Shown piece by piece: positions 4,161-14,000 of a stretch of DNA of 64,000 bases (positions within the stretch are counted from its first letter, which is position 1; each line of letters begins with the position of its first letter). This DNA comes from Falciphora oryzae. Its lineage: Eukaryota; Ascomycota; Sordariomycetes; Magnaporthales; Magnaporthaceae. The DNA lies in NCBI GenBank assembly GCA_000733355.1, contig JNVV01000023.1:335594-399593 (forward strand). The letters are read 5' to 3'. Position numbers and translations under genes: made by a program. The notes under the pieces are model-generated. The model was not told the origin of the DNA and did no database searches. It was given only the letters and a program-made list of their open reading frames with translations.

Positions 4161-4789
4161 CGACTCGTGGAAAAATAGCGTTTCTATTTAAACATTAGCT
4201 AGTCCGATCCTAATTCTAACGCTCAATTAAGCCCCGACGGTGTCTGGCGTCGGTCTGGTTCTAGGTTCTAGGTTTTAGATTGGCGAATTGATTTGCGTCG
4301 CGCGCCGCCGCGACGTAAAGGAAAGGTGCCTATTTCTAAATCGCCGGCAGGCGATTTAAATAAATGTAAAATTGTATTACAGCCAGACTAATGGAGGCAC
4401 GCTGGCCTTGCATTAGCGCTATGAACGAAAATTCTACACTAAAGAAAGGAAAAGGAAAAGGCGCTGGTCGCGCCGGCACGACACGCGCCTAAAGTTGTCG
4501 CGATCTATGTAGCTTGCATGCTTGTATCTGCCCCACATCTGTCCCACAGCTGTGGCGGTGCCACTGGACGTATGGCCTATGGCGGGACCGTCACAGAAAG
4601 GATGCATGCGCTAAAAAAGCCACCGCTCGCTTATACCCACCGCTCGCTTATCAAAAACGTTAAACCCGGAAAATAGGTTGTTGTTCCAGCTGAAGCCCTG
4701 GCGGTCCAACCCACGTGAGCTACGTGCACTTATGTGATCTCCTTGGATTCCATACCTGTGCTGCCTTTTCTCGTTTACCCCGCCTTCTC
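4161..4789. other. Non-coding spacer between the two repeats, with a hairpin
   Basis: No gene is visible. A perfect 8-bp stem with a GGCA loop (AAATCGCC/GGCGATTT) lies at 4338-4357. The stretch may include the 5' LTR of the gypsy element, but I cannot define LTR ends. Base composition returns toward normal at about 4.4-4.8 kb, ahead of the next element. Confidence 0.5.
4783..4789 (+). repeat. Target-site duplication, left copy (CCTTCTC)
   Basis: CCTTCTC directly abuts the left terminal inverted repeat at 4790. The same seven bases directly abut the right terminal repeat at 10889-10895. This is the footprint expected of a staggered-cut DNA insertion. Confidence 0.75.
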
Positions 4790-4809
4790 CTAGTCTCAGT
4801 GCCTCAGAC
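4790..4809 (+). repeat. Left terminal inverted repeat (20 bp)
   Basis: CTAGTCTCAGTGCCTCAGAC, exactly inverted at 10869-10888. The motif is itself an imperfect palindrome (GTCTxAG...CTxAGAC), which may suit binding by a dimeric protein (inference). Confidence 0.85.
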
Positions 4810-4820
4810 GTAATCGATTC

Positions 4821-4917
4821 AAAAAGGGCCGGCCCACCGCGGCTCCATGACTCGGTAGGGTGGCGCAACGAAGTCATTTGGTCTGTGCGCACGTACCGGC
4901 GGGCCGGCCCTCTTTTT
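4821..4917. repeat. Subterminal inverted repeat around GGGCCGGCCC
   Basis: AAAAAGGGCCGGCCC at 4821-4835 faces an imperfect inverted copy at about 4901-4917 (GGGCCGGCCCTCTTTTT), with about 65 bp between them. It sits just inside the left terminal repeat, and no matching structure is seen at the right end. Confidence 0.6.
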
Positions 4918-5236
4918 AAAAATCACGTCTAAAATAACATGGTGATTTTTTCCTTTTTATAGGGATGTTCCCCATACAAACTGAAAAAATCTACATTAAA
5001 CACTCGGCCATATCTATACAACCACATATCGCATCCATTAATAAAAAAGTGTTTAAAAGTGGGAATAGCTTCAACTCTAAACTGAAATACTTTTTATTCC
5101 GCCTAGGCGCTTCGTTCGCAATTGCTAATCGCCAACGCGAAAATTATTTTATAGGGATAAAATAGCATCATTTCCGCAACCTTCCACAACCACCTCCTAA
5201 TTTACCACTTTATATGGTTACCGGACTAAAAATTTG

Positions 5237-7583
5237 ATGGAAAGCATTTCCGAGCCTGCCTTAACAGCCGACGGTATATCGCTTGCGTTGCGCGCAATCG
5301 AAAATAGTCGCGCGTTGGCTACCGGGCAATATCAAAGCCGCCCTTTCCGGGACGTCATCTTTAACATCTACCACTATACGAACAAACCGGAAAACACGCT
5401 TCTTTAACGTAAATTTATTACTTCCGTTACCAGGGCACTTTTAAATTAACCCCGAGAAGGCTAGGAATACCACATACTATGGCGAGAACCCAAGCCCGAC
5501 CAAATCTCCTACATTTAACGTATCGTTTATAAATTTGGGGATACCATCCTTATCGCTAAAACAGGATATAGTAAAAGCATCGTATTTTAAGTAATATTTA
5601 TTATACGGAATTAACATATTACTATCCAATTCGTTCTATTAAATAAGTTGGGGGAAGAACAAACCCAGGTCGTTACCGGGTTCCTATGGGCCAAACCCAT
5701 TTTACTTAACCATTTAACGAAAAATGTAAAATATTGGAGCAACAAAAGCGCAAATCGGGCTAGGCTAATATATATTACCATCTTAAACCGATAACGTATG
5801 GAAACCTAGCAACCCGGCAGGATATACGCATTTTTTGCTTAGGCTAAAGCAAACTACCGATTATCGGTTCCTTCGTTTCCTTCGCAACCCCGAATTTAGC
5901 ATACAAATAGCCTTTATCGCTATCGACGAATTTTATACGGTTTATTAATAGAGGGAATTCCGTACCTTATACCCAAATCTCCATTTTATCCGCTCCGCGA
6001 TCCTTACGTCGATCCCGTTCTTTGGGTGTATAGTAACACTTACCCAAAAAGCCGAACAGTTCGTCCTTATTCACGCGGGGTTTAAATTCCCTGGCTTTAA
6101 CAAAAACCAGTTACAAATTATTCGAACATTTGTAAATAGGCCGGAAATTTCTTTCGTAATGCAGTACCTTGAAAAGGGACAACGACAAAATGACTACCGT
6201 CGCCTTTTCTTTTTAGTAAAAAATATGCTGCCCGGGTTCGAACCTTCCTTAATTCCCAAAACTATCATTTACATAAATTCTCGCAATGGGCTTATAAAAG
6301 CCCGCTATGCTCTTATATCATATTTTAAAAGCCGAAGAATCAACAGCGCAATATTTAATCGTACGATTGTTGCTTACCATTCCATCACACCGCCCATCGA
6401 CCAAAAACGGATATATAATATATTCCGGAAGGCCGATTCCCCTATCAGGATTGTTCTATTTACTGTCTCCCTCGGAATAGGTATGGATATCCCAAACGTT
6501 ATACGTATCGTACAATATAAAGCCCTGCTTTCACAAAATGTTGCGGATTTAATGCAAAGATTTGGTCGCGCATGCCGTTCCGGCAACCGCCGAAGCACGG
6601 GGTATTTTTTCGCCCCCTATTGGTATTTCGACATAATGGGCACAAGCGATAAAATTTCAGCGCAAAAAAAACGCCGCATCCCGCAACAACATGCACCTTT
6701 CACCCCAAGCAACTTACGCTTATCGATGGCAACTTCAAAGGATGATATTGCGATAAACGCGTCCCATGGGTCGGTTGCATCGGCCGCATCGGCCGCGTTA
6801 AACTATTCCACGTTACACTTTACCCCCGTTAACGCAAACCAAATAATCGAAGGGAGGCTATTAGCGCCAGCATTTTAAAACGACGCGGATTATACATTCG
6901 GCATTTACTCGGGCGCTATTCCCCTGCTATAGACCGCTACCGAAATTAAACAGCGAGCTAAATTGCGGAACGAACACCCTCATATGTACGATTTCGTTAA
7001 TGCCTCTTGTTTCCGGCGGGAATGTTTTAATCAATTGCAAAAGGTAAAAGCACATCGAATGCCACCCGAAAATTGCTACAACGCATATTCCCATAAACTC
7101 GGTAAATTCGACGTTCTTCCCAAACTAAACAAACCGATCGTAAAAATTAAAAAGCATACAAAGCCGTGGTTTATACGTAAAAAGCTAATGGCAGTTTTGA
7201 AGCGTATCGCTAATACCAAACTATACCCCGATCCCATTCGGCTATTTACCCTCCCCGGTACAATTTTAATAGAAAATATTATAGCAAACCATTTAGCGAA
7301 AGCTATCGAATCGAAAAAGGGTTCGTTGGATTTGCCACAGGTCCGCGCGCCTGCACAAAACTTCGGGGATTAAAAATGGCACGCATGGTTGGGAACAAAT
7401 GGCGACCTACTACGCGAAAAAGTACAAGGTATATACCGCCGGGAAATTGCTTCGCATTAGAAGCATCACCGCCAATCCACAATAAAAAAGAAGCAGCCCC
7501 AACAGCCACAATCGCAACCGGAAGGAAGTGCTAGCCAAGGACACGGGTCTTCGTCTCAAAAGAAAAGACGCAAACGGGTATAA
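5237..7583 (+). pseudogene. RecQ-like DNA helicase, RIP-inactivated
   Basis: A helicase can be traced through broken frames. The Walker A block at about 5558-5578 reads AKTGYSKS, with Ser where the central Gly of the P-loop is expected. The DExH box at about 5919-5936 reads AIDEFY, with the His lost. Motif III is about 6035. The C-terminal helicase domain is intact over 6159-6878 and includes LFTVSLGIGMDIPNV and the arginine-finger block QRFGRACRSG. A C-terminal extension follows (6963-7373) and a basic tail ends at the stop near 7583. The two altered ATPase motifs and many stops show it is dead. A Met at 5237 is a plausible start, but upstream sequence is too decayed to be sure. It faces the DUF6589-like gene tail to tail. 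Confidence 0.8.
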
Positions 7584-7692
7584 TTTGCGCCGGTTCTAGT
7601 GCAAAAGTTAAAAATGGACCCAAATTGAAATTCTTTATAATTTAAGCATTCAACTTTATTTAACAGCATTCCCATACAAACTTTCCATGCGG

Positions 7693-10598
7693 CTACCTAC
7701 CTAATCGTTTAACCCCTCCTCGCCATCGCTCTCTGCCCTTCCAAACGGGTACAATTTTTCACCCTCTGTATTGGCAATCCCTATCCCTTCCTCGTCGGTA
7801 GCCTTTGGCAGGCTTTGCTAACTTTGCACGCTCGCCGGCCTTACCATAGCTTTGTTAAAATTATCCAACTTGTTTTTTAGCAGGTTGGTAAACCCCTGGG
7901 AAAACAACTGCGGGGCGTCGAATGTTTCGTCCTGGTTTATTCGGTCGAAACTATTTCCCTACCCATTTTTTACCAAAGTACACGCCCATTACACCACGTT
8001 TGCTTTAGTGCTTACAACGGTATATGCACTATTCCTAAGTATGCCGAATTTGGATTCGAAAGTAGCGCGTAATGTTGCGGCGATAGGGCCTAAAGCTGCA
8101 CAATGTTAGAACGTCGTCCATATATCGTAGGTAAAATTGCGGTTATTTTTGATATCCGTAGAAAAGCTTTTGTTAATGTGCTCCACGGCGAGGTTTGCCG
8201 CTTTAAACCCACGTCCGGCAATAATGCACCGGACTAATCCAAACCGGAAAATGGCAGTATTTAGCGGTTCGGCTGTAATTTCTAGGCGTAACAGCCAAAT
8301 TAAATACAGCATTTGTAATCCATAGTTCTTAGCGCCTTTGCAGCCGTAAAAAAACAGGGTAAGCATAGGGATATATTAACGGAATATGCCATAGTTACCG
8401 GTTCGAATAGCTTTATCGATAACCCAAAATATTTCGATAATATAAAGGTACCTGCATTAAAAGCGGAAAAGGATATTGCTTTCCCTATTGTTAGGATAGT
8501 TGCCGGTACTACCAAAATATCCGAACGCGTCCGTTCGGATATTTTAATATAGGTTGTCGATATCGTCGATAAAAACTTTAGCTAAAGCTTCCACCAAAAT
8601 AAACGGGGTGATTTCCGCTATTATGCTTAAAACACCGGTTTACTGGAGCTGGTACATAACCATGGCTAACATTCGCGCACGGTAAACGTCTTGGAGTAGC
8701 CTAATGGCGTAGTAATACTCTGGTACTAGAACGGATAGCTTTTACGTTCGACCCAGTCCTTTCACGTCTATTTTTACCAATAGCTCAAATTCTTTCCATA
8801 TATGGGATAGCATATTAAATTTGATATAGAAAAAGGCCGGGATTGGAAGCATCCATTGTTTGCGGTCGAATAGCTGACTGGCTTCAAACTAGGCGGATTG
8901 GATATGCTGGATAAAGGAAACTGTCTTTTAATCGCCATAAACAAGGACCAGGTTGGCGTTGTAATCGAAGGTAAGGTCGTCAGGCTTCAAACCGAGGAGC
9001 TCTTGGAATAGCTGTTCGTAGATGCGGATAACTCCGCTAAACTCGCCTTCATTTTCCATAATAGCCGGTGTTTGGATAAGGTATAACACCTAAGTTAAAG
9101 CACGTAATACTTCTAGGAAAGGCTTTTCGGGGAAGCGCAACTTTGGAACGTTTTCGGCACCATTATATAAATCGTTAGAAATTGTAAATCCATCGAATAG
9201 GTGGTGGAAGATTTGTTAGCGGAACAGGAACTAGGCACATTCTGGCTGGTTGCGAGGAAAAGGCGACGTAAACATTTCAAATAGCCATCGCTTTTAGAAA
9301 GGCAAAATTGCGCGCCACTGGGATTAGGTATATCGTTCTACGTCGGGGCACCCAATAAATAAACATATGGTAACGTTACGCATAATATCGGTACGTCCAT
9401 ATCCCAGGTTTTGGATGCGATCTATAAAGTTGAAGTTGTCGTATACAATAACGAATAAAAGGTCGCGGGCAACGCGGCGCAAATTCACCTGTCCAAAAGA
9501 TATAATTTAATATGGAATGGATAAAAAAGCAAATTACTCTACAGGCATACGTACTTTAGCTTTCTCCACCAACTTCGTGGTCTCCCCCTTTGCTTAGCGA
9601 TATAAACAAAAAACCCCCAATCCCGCCAAAACTTTTACTACCGGCCTTAGCACTCCGCTATTAAGTAGGTAAATACCCAAACTTTTCGCCAAATAATTGC
9701 TCCGCTTTGGCGAGCGAACGTTGGCTAGGATGCTTGCAATCATAAAGCGAAGGCCTAAATTCTTATCGCGGCGACGAGTAACTGGTGCGTCGGTAAAGCC
9801 TTGCGAAAAGGGCTGGTTGGATCCATAAGATTCCCAATGGCTGCGGTCGTTAGCCATCAGGTGGTCGAGGAGCGCGGATAAATCAGGCGCTTCCCGGCGG
9901 AGAACGGCGTCTGCTTGGCCGAGGTCGTTGCTAATCCAAGACGTATCGCAAAGATTTTTGGCGGCTGCTGGTCCATCCCCTTAGGCCACAGCGGCAGGGG
10001 TAAACTGGTTAAAAGGGGGGTGTACGCTAACGCCGACGAGATTTTGCCGAAAGGTAGGGAATGCAGTTGATGGTGGTACAAATACATTCGACTGTTGGAA
10101 GGTTAAACCAGCAGTTTGGAATGCACGGATAACGTCGTTATCATTCGCAAATTGGCGAAGGGCTCTAACGCGACCAGCTTTGGGTTTGCCGGTAAAAGTA
10201 TTAAGTTGGCATGTCCATTGCTTAAAAAAAGAACGAAAAGATCCCTTAACCACCCTGCTTCGCCAGAACTGGATGGTATCTTTAACGAGCTGGTCATCTT
10301 CACCGCCGTCGGCATCGTCGTCATCTTCACCGCCGTCGGCATCGTCGTCATTTTCGCTGTTGTTTTTTTCAACGTTTCCTATGTTCCCTTCGTCGTAAAT
10401 GAACCGGAGGTTGGAAAAGCCTGGTTGTTCGTTATCGGAAAGGCTGATATCCATAGGATCTGGGGTAGGGGTTGGGCGTTGTGGCGTAGAATGCAAAGGC
10501 GTAAGGTCGGAGGTTGGGAAATCTACCCCTAGCAGCCCCGCGGTAATGGATGCCGCGGATTGTTGGGATTGAGGGGGGAGCGACGGCGACGAAGACAT
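7693..10598 (-). pseudogene. DUF6589-like protein of the TIR element, broken
   Basis: The minus strand from a Met at 10598 encodes a Pro/Ser-rich N-terminus, an acidic DDDADGGED tandem repeat, then a domain readable through many stops to about 7693. The block LLFVIVYDNFNFIDRI (about 9417-9460) and the later stretch KNYGLQMLYLIWLLRLEI, with FGLVRC and KAANLAVEHINKS after it (8106-8366), resemble DUF6589-family proteins as I recall them. The N-terminal 200 codons are nearly undamaged, while the middle and end are heavily mutated. The function of the family is not established; a transposase-like role would fit its position in a TIR element, but this is inference. The family call is moderate. Confidence 0.55.
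10294..10347 (-). repeat. 27-bp tandem repeat (2 copies) in acidic linker
   Basis: Two identical 27-bp units (10294-10320 and 10321-10347) encode the acidic DDDADGGED repeat of the minus-strand protein. They keep the frame and are not AT-enriched. Confidence 0.9.
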
Positions 10599-10868
10599 TG
10601 TAATATTGCACCTATAGGTGAAGATTCGAATCGATAAACGATTTGTATTAAACGGAACAGGGTAAGGAAGTATTATTTGGATGGATCTTTGCGATTGTAA
10701 ATATCGTCAATTGGTGATTGCGGTGAAATGCCGACAAAAGACGAGATTTTCGCACCAAGGTGTTTTAGACCAGGTGATGAGGAAGTTGGGGGGGGGCTGT
10801 GATTGGGTGGATTGGGTGGAGCGGGGAGGGGTGGGGCGGAGTGACTCGGGGGACTTCCGCCACACCTG

Positions 10869-10888
10869 GTCTGAGGCACTGAGACTAG
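10869..10888 (-). repeat. Right terminal inverted repeat (20 bp)
   Basis: GTCTGAGGCACTGAGACTAG, the exact reverse complement of 4790-4809. Confidence 0.85.
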
Positions 10889-10895
10889 CCTTCTC
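10889..10895 (+). repeat. Target-site duplication, right copy (CCTTCTC)
   Basis: Matches 4783-4789 and abuts the right terminal repeat. It lies about 120 bp upstream of the NLR start codon. Confidence 0.75.
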
Positions 10896-11014
10896 CCTGC
10901 TCTCTCCCCTTTTACTTGCTCTTGTCCACCTCTCCGCGCCACTTCGCCGTCGTTTCAGCTTCCATTATCGTTATCCCTTCTCTGTCCTCGTTCCCATCCA
11001 AGCCACTATTAAAA

Positions 11015-14000
11015 ATGGCAGAGTCTCTTGCGGCCCTCGGAGTGGCGGCGAATATCTTCCAATTCATCGAACTAGGATACAACCTCGGCAGAGCCATCTA
11101 CGAAGTTTACCAAAGCGCCGATGGCCTCCCCGCCCAGACCGTCGACATGGCGAACACGGCTGCCGAGCTGAAGACGATGGCCTCCAAAGTGAAGAAGGAT
11201 AACCAGTCATCTGGAGGCAAAGATTCGGTTCTCAACACCGTGCTGCAAAAAGCGACCGACGCTGCCGACGATCTTTCATGGGAAATCAACAATCTGAGAC
11301 TCAGCAGCGGGCTATCCTCGATCTCGGAGCGGCTTGCGAGATTCATCATTGCTATGAGGATCATTCGGAGGAGGAGGAAGGTCCAGGGTCTCAACGAGCG
11401 TATCGTCGAGATCAGACAACAGGTTCTGTTGCATCTCCAGGCGCTTGTCCTACAGCAAGGAAATGAGCAGGCAAACTCTCTCGACGGCTTGCTTGGTGCG
11501 GCGGCGATGGCAACGGAATTTCACGAGTCGCACACAAGGAAGCTGCAAGAGATTGCCCGGGATCTGCAAGCTTTCACATCGGCTGCCACGAGTTTGAGCT
11601 CCCAATGCGACCAAAAATCCAACGAGTTGGTCAAAAGCATCGCCGCCTTTATCGATCGAGTCCGCCATTACGAAACCATCAAGGGCATTCTCGAAAGCCT
11701 GCATTTCAAAGAGCTGAGACAGCGACAAAATGAAATCCCGCAGGCGCACCTCAAAACCTTCGAATGGATGTTTGCTGCTGAAGGTGGCAAAACATTCCGG
11801 GACTAGCTACGTGGCCCTTCTGGCGGCATCTTCTGGATCACTGGAAAACCTGGTTCGGGAAAATCTACCCTCTTGAAGTTTCTCCTCAGGGACTCCCGAA
11901 CTCGCGAGCTTTTGGGGGACTGGCTACAGGACGAGAGGCCTCTTCTTCTGCTCAGTCATTTCTTCTGGGCCATGGGCGACCGAATCCAGAGGTCATACGA
12001 GGGGCTTCTTAGGACCATTCTTTTCCAAGTCTTAGCTGCCTATCCCGAGCTACTCCCGACCGCTTGCCCCAACCGCTACTCAGCCACATATCGTTGCCTC
12101 GAATCTTGGACAGTTGAGGAGCTGTCAGAGTCCTTCCAGTTGTTAGCAAATGCCGGACGATTACCGGCACGCATTTTCATTTTCATCGACGGCCTGGACG
12201 AATATGACGGCGAACCAACCCACATCGCGAAGGTGGTCCATACAATGGCTTCTTCTCCAGAGATCAAAATCTGTTGTGCTAGCAGACCTTGGCGCCTATT
12301 GCAAAGTAGAAGTGCATGCAGTAGACCGTTTGGCTTTATTTCTACCTCTAAAGAACTAATAGGAAAGCGCCCGAGGGTCTTCGACCCTCGGGGTCTTTAT
12401 ACATGAGTGCGCAGTAGGAGTGGAGAGCCCCTCTCGGCGTCGCCGAGTGCTCTATAACCGCTTATTGAGCACCTGCGACGCCAGCGAGGGTGGCGATGCC
12501 GACCCTGGCCGGCATGGCCGGAGGACCCCCTCGATCCTTTGCGACAGCGCCCCTTTGAAGTAGCCTTCAAATCAGCCGCTGGAACCGTCCGCGTCCATGA
12601 CCTTACCGAGAACGACATCCAGCTCTATGTCAAGGGCTCGCTCAAGCAAGATGAAAACTACCTGAAACTTAGCTCAAGAGCTCCTCAGGAGGCTCAGGAT
12701 CTCGTGGATGCCGTCACTTCACGTGCCGAGGGCGTGTTCTTCTGGGTATTTTTGGTTGTCAGGTCTCTTCTACGCGGCCTTGGCGGAAACGACGACATTT
12801 CAACACTACACCGAAGGCTTGAAGAGCTTCCCACAGACCTCGACGCCTTCCTCGGAAGGATGCTTCTGTCGATCGAGAAGGTGTACCAAGATAAAGTGGC
12901 AACCATATTAAACTGTCTCCTGGTCGCCAACAAGTCTCTGCCCGTGGTTGTCTTTTCCGCGATGGATGAGCTCCAAGATTTTCTCGTCCCAAAAAGAAAG
13001 CTGTGGTTTCCTGAATCACATGCCCAGACGGGCCTCAAATCGTTCTTTACTGGACGTGGGACAACGGAGATGACGGGAAACTGGCCAGTGTCAACCGATT
13101 CAAACAGTCGGATTTCTGGAATGGATGGGATTCTCGCGCTAAAAGAAATCCTGCTACACCAATGTCGCGACTTGATACAATCCTGGAACGGGGACTCAGG
13201 CCCAGCAGAGTGGTTGCCTCAGATAGGCTTCATTCACCGCACAGTGGTCGACTTTCTCCGCACCCCGAAGGCCTCATCCATGATAGTGCCCCCCTTGGAG
13301 GCGGGGTACTTCCACTTCTCCCTCGCATGCTCCTTGATCCGCCTAATCGAGATTTCTGGTGGCTGCTCCTACAACATTCTCCAAGAATGTGTCTGCTCGA
13401 CTTTGTCTTTGGCAGCTTCGCAAAGGCACCCAAGAACGAAGGAAGCTTTACTCTTCCTCAATCAACGGCTCCTCGAGCTGCCCCAAGACTCCTTTTACAG
13501 GCGTCAGGAGCCTAAATCTCTATTCCCTCCACTTTCTCATCACAACACTGTCGAACGTCCGCCTAGCGTTTACGACTACACCTTTCCGATGGTGGCGTTT
13601 CGACTGGGATTTTATGAGTGCGATTTTGCCCTGCCCTTGACGGCGGGGGGTGCTCTTGTCGGCGATTATGCAAAGTTCTGGAAAGTTGTCTTTCTCCAAG
13701 CTTTGCAGCCTGCGTGTAGTGCAATTACAGCCGAGGACGCGGCATTCGACGCAGGTGAGGGTGTGGATGGAGGAATAAACCTGGATGGGTTACGTACCCT
13801 TCTTACCAAAGCCAGCGCAGGACACATCTCCGATGCTATTCTCAAAGATTCCTTCTACTCCACCCGGGAGTGCCCGAGCCACGAAGTCCACCTTATCGCC
13901 GGCCGCTCAAACTGTTGCCTCACTCTGGCGGGGGTTAAAAATGGCCGGGGAAGAGACAAGCACTGGAAGGTCTTGGAGATGATTCTCTCCGGATTCTCCG

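Follow-up and report, generated by a model that had tools for sequence, protein, structure and literature searches.

We analysed a window of 64,000 nucleotides (64 kb) from contig JNVV01000023.1 of the ascomycete Falciphora oryzae. The segment at 4791-10887 is in our judgement highly likely to be a dead cut-and-paste DNA transposon of fungi that most probably belongs to the AcademH lineage, with a DUF6589 protein (Pfam PF20231) as its RNase H-fold transposase and a RecQ-like helicase as accessory protein. The AcademH lineage is said to go back to Kojima, 2020. We observed shared ends, 9-bp duplications, unoccupied sites and co-occurrence of the two genes within one genome, as well as inactivation resembling repeat-induced point mutation (RIP). 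What is chiefly new is the proposed role of PF20231, i.e. a testable function for DUF6589.

Ends of the element and mobility of the family

Two stretches at 4790-4809 and 10869-10888 form an inverted repeat that is 100% complementary; no other pair of 16 nt or longer was reported across 4700-11000. An earlier interpretation of the same DNA, made from the sequence alone (the sequence-only reading), had described this as a perfect 20-bp repeat flanked by a 7-bp duplication, CCTTCTC. The perfect repeat and the presence of CCTTCTC outside both ends were found as described, but both lengths had to be revised. In seven of the ten other left ends of the family the exact match starts at 4791 (in the remaining three it starts 1-5 bases further out), and because these homologous left ends shift the border by one base, the terminal inverted repeat (TIR) is the 19-bp sequence TAGTCTCAGTGCCTCAGAC (left copy at 4791-4809 on the plus strand, right copy at 10869-10887 on the minus strand) and the target-site duplication (TSD), not assigned to a strand, is the 9-bp sequence GCCTTCTCC (4782-4790 and 10888-10896). 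The earlier lengths arose because the outermost C/G pair, which is part of the duplication, was counted into the repeat.

A search of the 50.2-Mb assembly (123 contigs) returned 11 left ends of the family at 92-100% identity, including the window's own; a twelfth match was a 37-base internal one. The 19-mer with up to three mismatches had 104 matches in the genome, against 7 for the reversed control, and together with the left ends this places the feature far beyond chance. We then considered 17 TIR-bounded units, a subset of all copies, comprising 10 inward-facing pairs (picked by orientation and spacing), five units from longer stretches and one unit each on contigs C35 and C92. An exact 9-bp TSD was present in 15 of the 17, with 8 of 9 positions agreeing in the C41 unit and no duplication in the C70 unit, while all 272 control pairings of mismatched flanks gave at least three mismatches. 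No common sequence was evident among the 9-bp duplications. The check that the sequence-only reading had suggested, namely a search for other pairs of these genes bounded by the same ends and by differing 7-bp duplications, thus turned up the same kind of ends and differing duplications, of 9 bp and not 7.

Unoccupied sites were sought by comparing the joined flanks of three insertions with the same genome, and were found for two of them. The insertion at C54:246816-253582 lies in a short repeat, for which 33 of 46 rows span the junction uninterrupted at 90-99% identity (of the other rows two are the insertion's own flanks and 11 cover one side only; scoring was limited to 40 of 160 candidates). 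This repeat of about 142 bp (query positions 31-172) is present at no fewer than 33 further sites and seems in turn to lie within another repeat, parts of which match on either side. The insertion at C48:74416 lies in another repeat, where 13 of 15 rows extend over almost all of the 300 bp at 83-93% identity and two are its own flanks. For the window insertion, the joined flanks matched only its own two flanks in the genome.

Another line of evidence is the association of the two genes. PF20231 had 45 matches, merged into 41 loci, and the helicase 57 matches, merged into 43 loci (all lower bounds). A helicase was found within 3 kb of 35 of the 41 DUF6589 loci and was convergent with DUF6589 in every one of these 35. 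For three of the other six loci the convergent helicase lies farther off, at 9.8-16.1 kb, a spacing that fits nested insertions, and around the last three no helicase occurs within 80 kb. Eight helicase loci lack a DUF6589 neighbour at 3 kb or less, and these include the three distant partners just mentioned; the helicase on C11, with 22% identity, probably represents a host RecQ gene. The pairing, the shared ends and the duplications in other units bear out the earlier proposal of a complete mobile unit with the helicase/DUF6589 pair as its coding content.

Gene content and the candidate transposase

The convergent pair that had been read between the ends was located, and the two genes fill 5267-10598. 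The RecQ-like helicase gene (5267-7580, plus strand) is broken by 12 in-frame stops in its matched parts. The DUF6589 gene (7704-10598, minus strand) is matched up to 10289, with a start codon read by eye at about 10598, and is broken by 16 in-frame stops in its main part and two in its N-terminal part; its product is the candidate DDE transposase, with a fold taken from homologues. The helicase shows a Walker A motif (GYGKS) and DELH. In an apparently intact relative on C92 the best NCBIfam match of the helicase was TIGR00614 (recQ_fam; 2.8e-22, 79 bits, below the curated cut-off of 220), and the longest helicase frame of the window copy matched recQ_fam at 4.8e-7. Among PDB entries the helicase matched WRN helicase best, with RecQ and further RecQ-family helicases next. 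The nuclease of AcademX elements is of the XPG type; no nuclease match was found in the 10 open reading frames (ORFs) scanned, a selection of the frames of the window copy and two relatives.

PF20231 is listed in Pfam as a family of unknown function and was matched by all 17 DUF6589 members scanned, among which no hAT, Mutator-like element (MULE) or P model was matched up to an E-value of 0.1. An AlphaFold model of a DUF6589 homologue matched the Hermes, ISCth4, P-element, RAG1 and Transib transposases (VIA-align, Foldseek), the best structural matches being Hermes (hAT), ISCth4 and the P element; with a first DUF6589 model the matches to DDE transposases were weaker. The predicted fold, an RNase H core with a helical insertion, is the hAT-type fold of a transposase core, and D-D-E residues are conserved across the homologues. 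In line with the earlier suggestion of a candidate transposase, the modelled fold and the putative catalytic triad, formed by the equivalents of D319, D466 and E673, make it very probable that the DUF6589 protein is a DDE transposase assisted by the RecQ-like protein.

Protein-database searches listed 11, 10 and 6 proteins (P0001 and P0020 each being listed twice), and among the matches listed all with a named source were fungal, the nearest named DUF6589 homologue being from Annulohypoxylon truncatum (Xylariales). None of 29 pattern matches in viral contigs was a DUF6589 relative, and plasmids gave zero matches with one protein as query, both as expected for a fungal family. Four Hypoxylaceae proteins of 320-343 amino acids (P0016-P0019) resemble about one quarter to one third of the DUF6589 protein and do not carry the PF20231 label. 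Judged from two of them, the similarity covers the DUF6589 N-terminal part; they are fragments or possibly a stand-alone end-binding derivative.

Decay of the family and an apparently intact relative

As a reference for decay we used C51, the copy with the longest open frames, which is cut by a contig end. Eight copies differ from it at 290-609 of 4,670-5,142 sites, with 94-98% of the differences being C:G to T:A and only one or two transversions per copy. Since the copies are nearly identical apart from C:G to T:A changes, the burst was recent and the RIP-like mutation came afterwards. The mutated contexts in the window copy were CpA (174), CpT (155), CpC (18) and CpG (9), so that CpA and CpT are affected to a similar extent and the other two contexts far less. 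This differs from RIP in Neurospora, which prefers CpA. The window copy is dead through this RIP-like C-to-T mutation, both genes being broken. The relative at C92:31295-37378 is apparently intact, each of its genes consisting of two long open frames that meet at a presumed intron.

Subterminal structures and proposed mechanism

At each end of the element a portion of the terminal repeat pairs with a subterminal stretch to form an internal inverted repeat: on the left at 4806-4930 (arms 4806-4839 and 4897-4930, 76% complementary) and on the right at 10760-10879 (arms 10760-10786 and 10853-10879, 78% complementary), neither with an assigned strand. A motif comparison also gave the subterminal motif GTCTAAAATAACATGGTG at 4922-4945 (plus strand) and a counterpart at 10752-10775 (minus strand). 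In four of the six elements compared, a motif GTCT-A/G-A..ATGGTG or similar lies about equally far from either end, the remaining two having different best 24-mer matches; beyond the window copy it recurs at similar offsets in three copies, two of which are diverged relatives. The best 24-mer match between the ends scores 15-17 across the six elements, with five simple shuffles each reaching 13-17, and in the window copy alone the score is not above the shuffles and not significant. The subterminal repeats and the motif are presented as candidate protein-binding sites, putatively for the transposase, with weak evidence per single copy.

We propose that the DUF6589 protein, as a transposase of RNase H fold (D-D-E) that carries a helical insertion domain, would bind the 19-bp ends (TAGTCTC...GAGACTA), perhaps aided by the subterminal repeats, and that the bound proteins would pair both ends and excise the element. 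To judge from the fold, excision would probably follow the hairpin-on-flank route of Hermes and the RAG relatives. The ends would then be joined to a target with a 9-bp stagger, and gap repair would leave the 9-bp duplications. The RecQ-like accessory may unwind or repair the staggered ends or the target, or assist gap repair. In the convergent layout, as found at all 35 close pairs, one gene reads inward from each end.

Derivatives and genomic setting

At C9:1029390-1041537 two copies are joined tail to tail into a dimer of 12.1 kb in which both outer ends are left ends. A single 9-bp duplication (AGGTTCAAT) surrounds the whole, the left terminal repeat occurs twice in tandem and one inner right end lacks about 10 nt; it looks as if the two left ends were used as the end pair of one unit. 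At C16:215673-217204 lies a 1.5-kb element whose ends are of this kind too and which is flanked by a 9-bp duplication (AGGCACGTC); it is too short for both genes and hence likely a non-autonomous derivative.

The C35 unit (C35:62164-89625) spans 27.4 kb between perfect ends with a 9-bp TSD (TCTTCCAAG) and has an unbroken DUF6589 frame. The ORFs between helicase and DUF6589 include one of the DDE_Tnp_4 and one of the Myb-like type; among four further ORFs scanned there, two gave no match and two matched below the curated cut-off (SNF2-related and HC2). A cargo-carrying giant version of the element was considered for this unit and rejected for now, the helicase gene being split by nested material that includes a run of N. 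The open frames of this nested material look by eye like those of a gypsy-type retroelement, and the two that were scanned had no Pfam match.

A NOD-like receptor (NLR) gene of the NACHT/NPHP3_N type has its start codon at 11015, and the window insertion is located 118 bp upstream of this codon; because of this short distance the insertion may lie in the promoter of that gene.

Alternative explanations

The most serious alternative is that PF20231 forms a DDE family of its own, Hermes/P-like, that recruited RecQ independently of Academ. The elements would then be a separate, as yet unnamed fungal superfamily with TAGTCTC...GAGACTA ends and strict 9-bp TSDs, resembling AcademH by convergence (equal TSD length, RecQ taken up independently). 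The literature that we searched by full text contained no mention of DUF6589, which, like the status of PF20231 in Pfam, would suit such a superfamily. RecQ has moreover been acquired more than once by transposons, KolobokH carrying one according to a passage of PMC9587614. TSD length, helicase family and fungal host nevertheless all agree with AcademH as it is described in parts of the papers citing it, and we regard a separate superfamily as unlikely. A transposon of the MULE, hAT or P type that captured a helicase is a good deal less likely again. MULE duplications are 9-11 bp long and the best structural matches of the DUF6589 model include hAT and P transposases; on the other side stand the Pfam matches to PF20231, with none to a hAT, MULE or P model up to an E-value of 0.1, and, for hAT, a usual duplication of 8 bp (passage of PMC12730594).

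Slightly less probable still is a Kolobok-lineage element, for which TTAA duplications would be expected, as Kolobok transposons make these, and not 9 bp without a common sequence. In its favour, KolobokH is restricted to fungi and has a RecQ helicase among its products, as stated in part of PMC9587614. The least credible explanation, to which we give practically no weight, is a dispersed telomere-linked or host RecQ gene that lies between inverted repeats by chance. Telomere-linked RecQ helicases are subtelomeric genes without TIR or TSD, whereas the gene pair here lies within both, and the window copy is situated about 340 kb within its contig. Such genes are dispersed in fungi (in parts of PMC4522978 and PMC5576322), and the sequence-only reading had brought them up; the repeated pairing with DUF6589, the shared ends and duplications and the unoccupied sites speak against this link, which we have dropped.

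If the preferred assignment to AcademH is true, the element does not represent a new superfamily. Fungal genes annotated as DUF6589 would probably be transposases, and adjacent RecQ genes would be transposon helicases and not host repair genes. The apparently intact relative, the sharp 9-bp TSDs and the unoccupied sites make the question of helicase carriage by transposons directly testable.

Comparison with known systems

Helitrons, which have no TIR, no duplication and a Rep protein, were considered and ruled out by the TIR and the 9-bp TSD. KolobokH resembles the present element as a fungal transposon with a RecQ helicase and differs in its duplications. With Hermes, ISCth4, the P element and RAG1/Transib the element shares the predicted fold, and differs from them in that no Pfam sequence similarity was seen up to the E-value given above. 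The difference from hAT extends to the TSD, which in hAT is usually 8 bp with variants of 5-7 bp (passage of PMC12730594); here it is 9 bp in 15 of 17 units and exactly 8 bp in none.

The sequence-only reading had known of no named superfamily built from a helicase/DUF6589 pair, a view that gives way here since AcademH fits by description (passages of PMC10045372 and PMC6416283). AcademH elements encode a helicase and make 9- or 10-bp duplications, whereas AcademX elements encode a nuclease and make duplications of 3 or 4 bp, a difference that seems tied to the enzyme encoded (passages of PMC10045372); with 9 bp and a helicase, and no XPG-type nuclease match in the ORFs scanned, the present element sides with the former. 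Among fungal Academ copies, 1,568 of 1,938 had recognizable domains (e.g. DEAD/DEAH helicase and recQ_fam), and Academs are often annotated as host genes (parts of PMC6416283); the helicase here is likewise of superfamily II and of the recQ_fam type, with a TIGR00614 match below the cut-off. AcademX is listed among the DDD/E superfamilies in part of PMC9587614, in line with the DDD/E transposase suggested here by the predicted RNase H fold of the homologues, and AcademH occurs at low copy number in Ascomycota, Basidiomycota and Mucoromycota (part of PMC10799480). Because TSD length, helicase type and host kingdom fit, we file the element as a probable member of AcademH, the published elements being compared through their descriptions.

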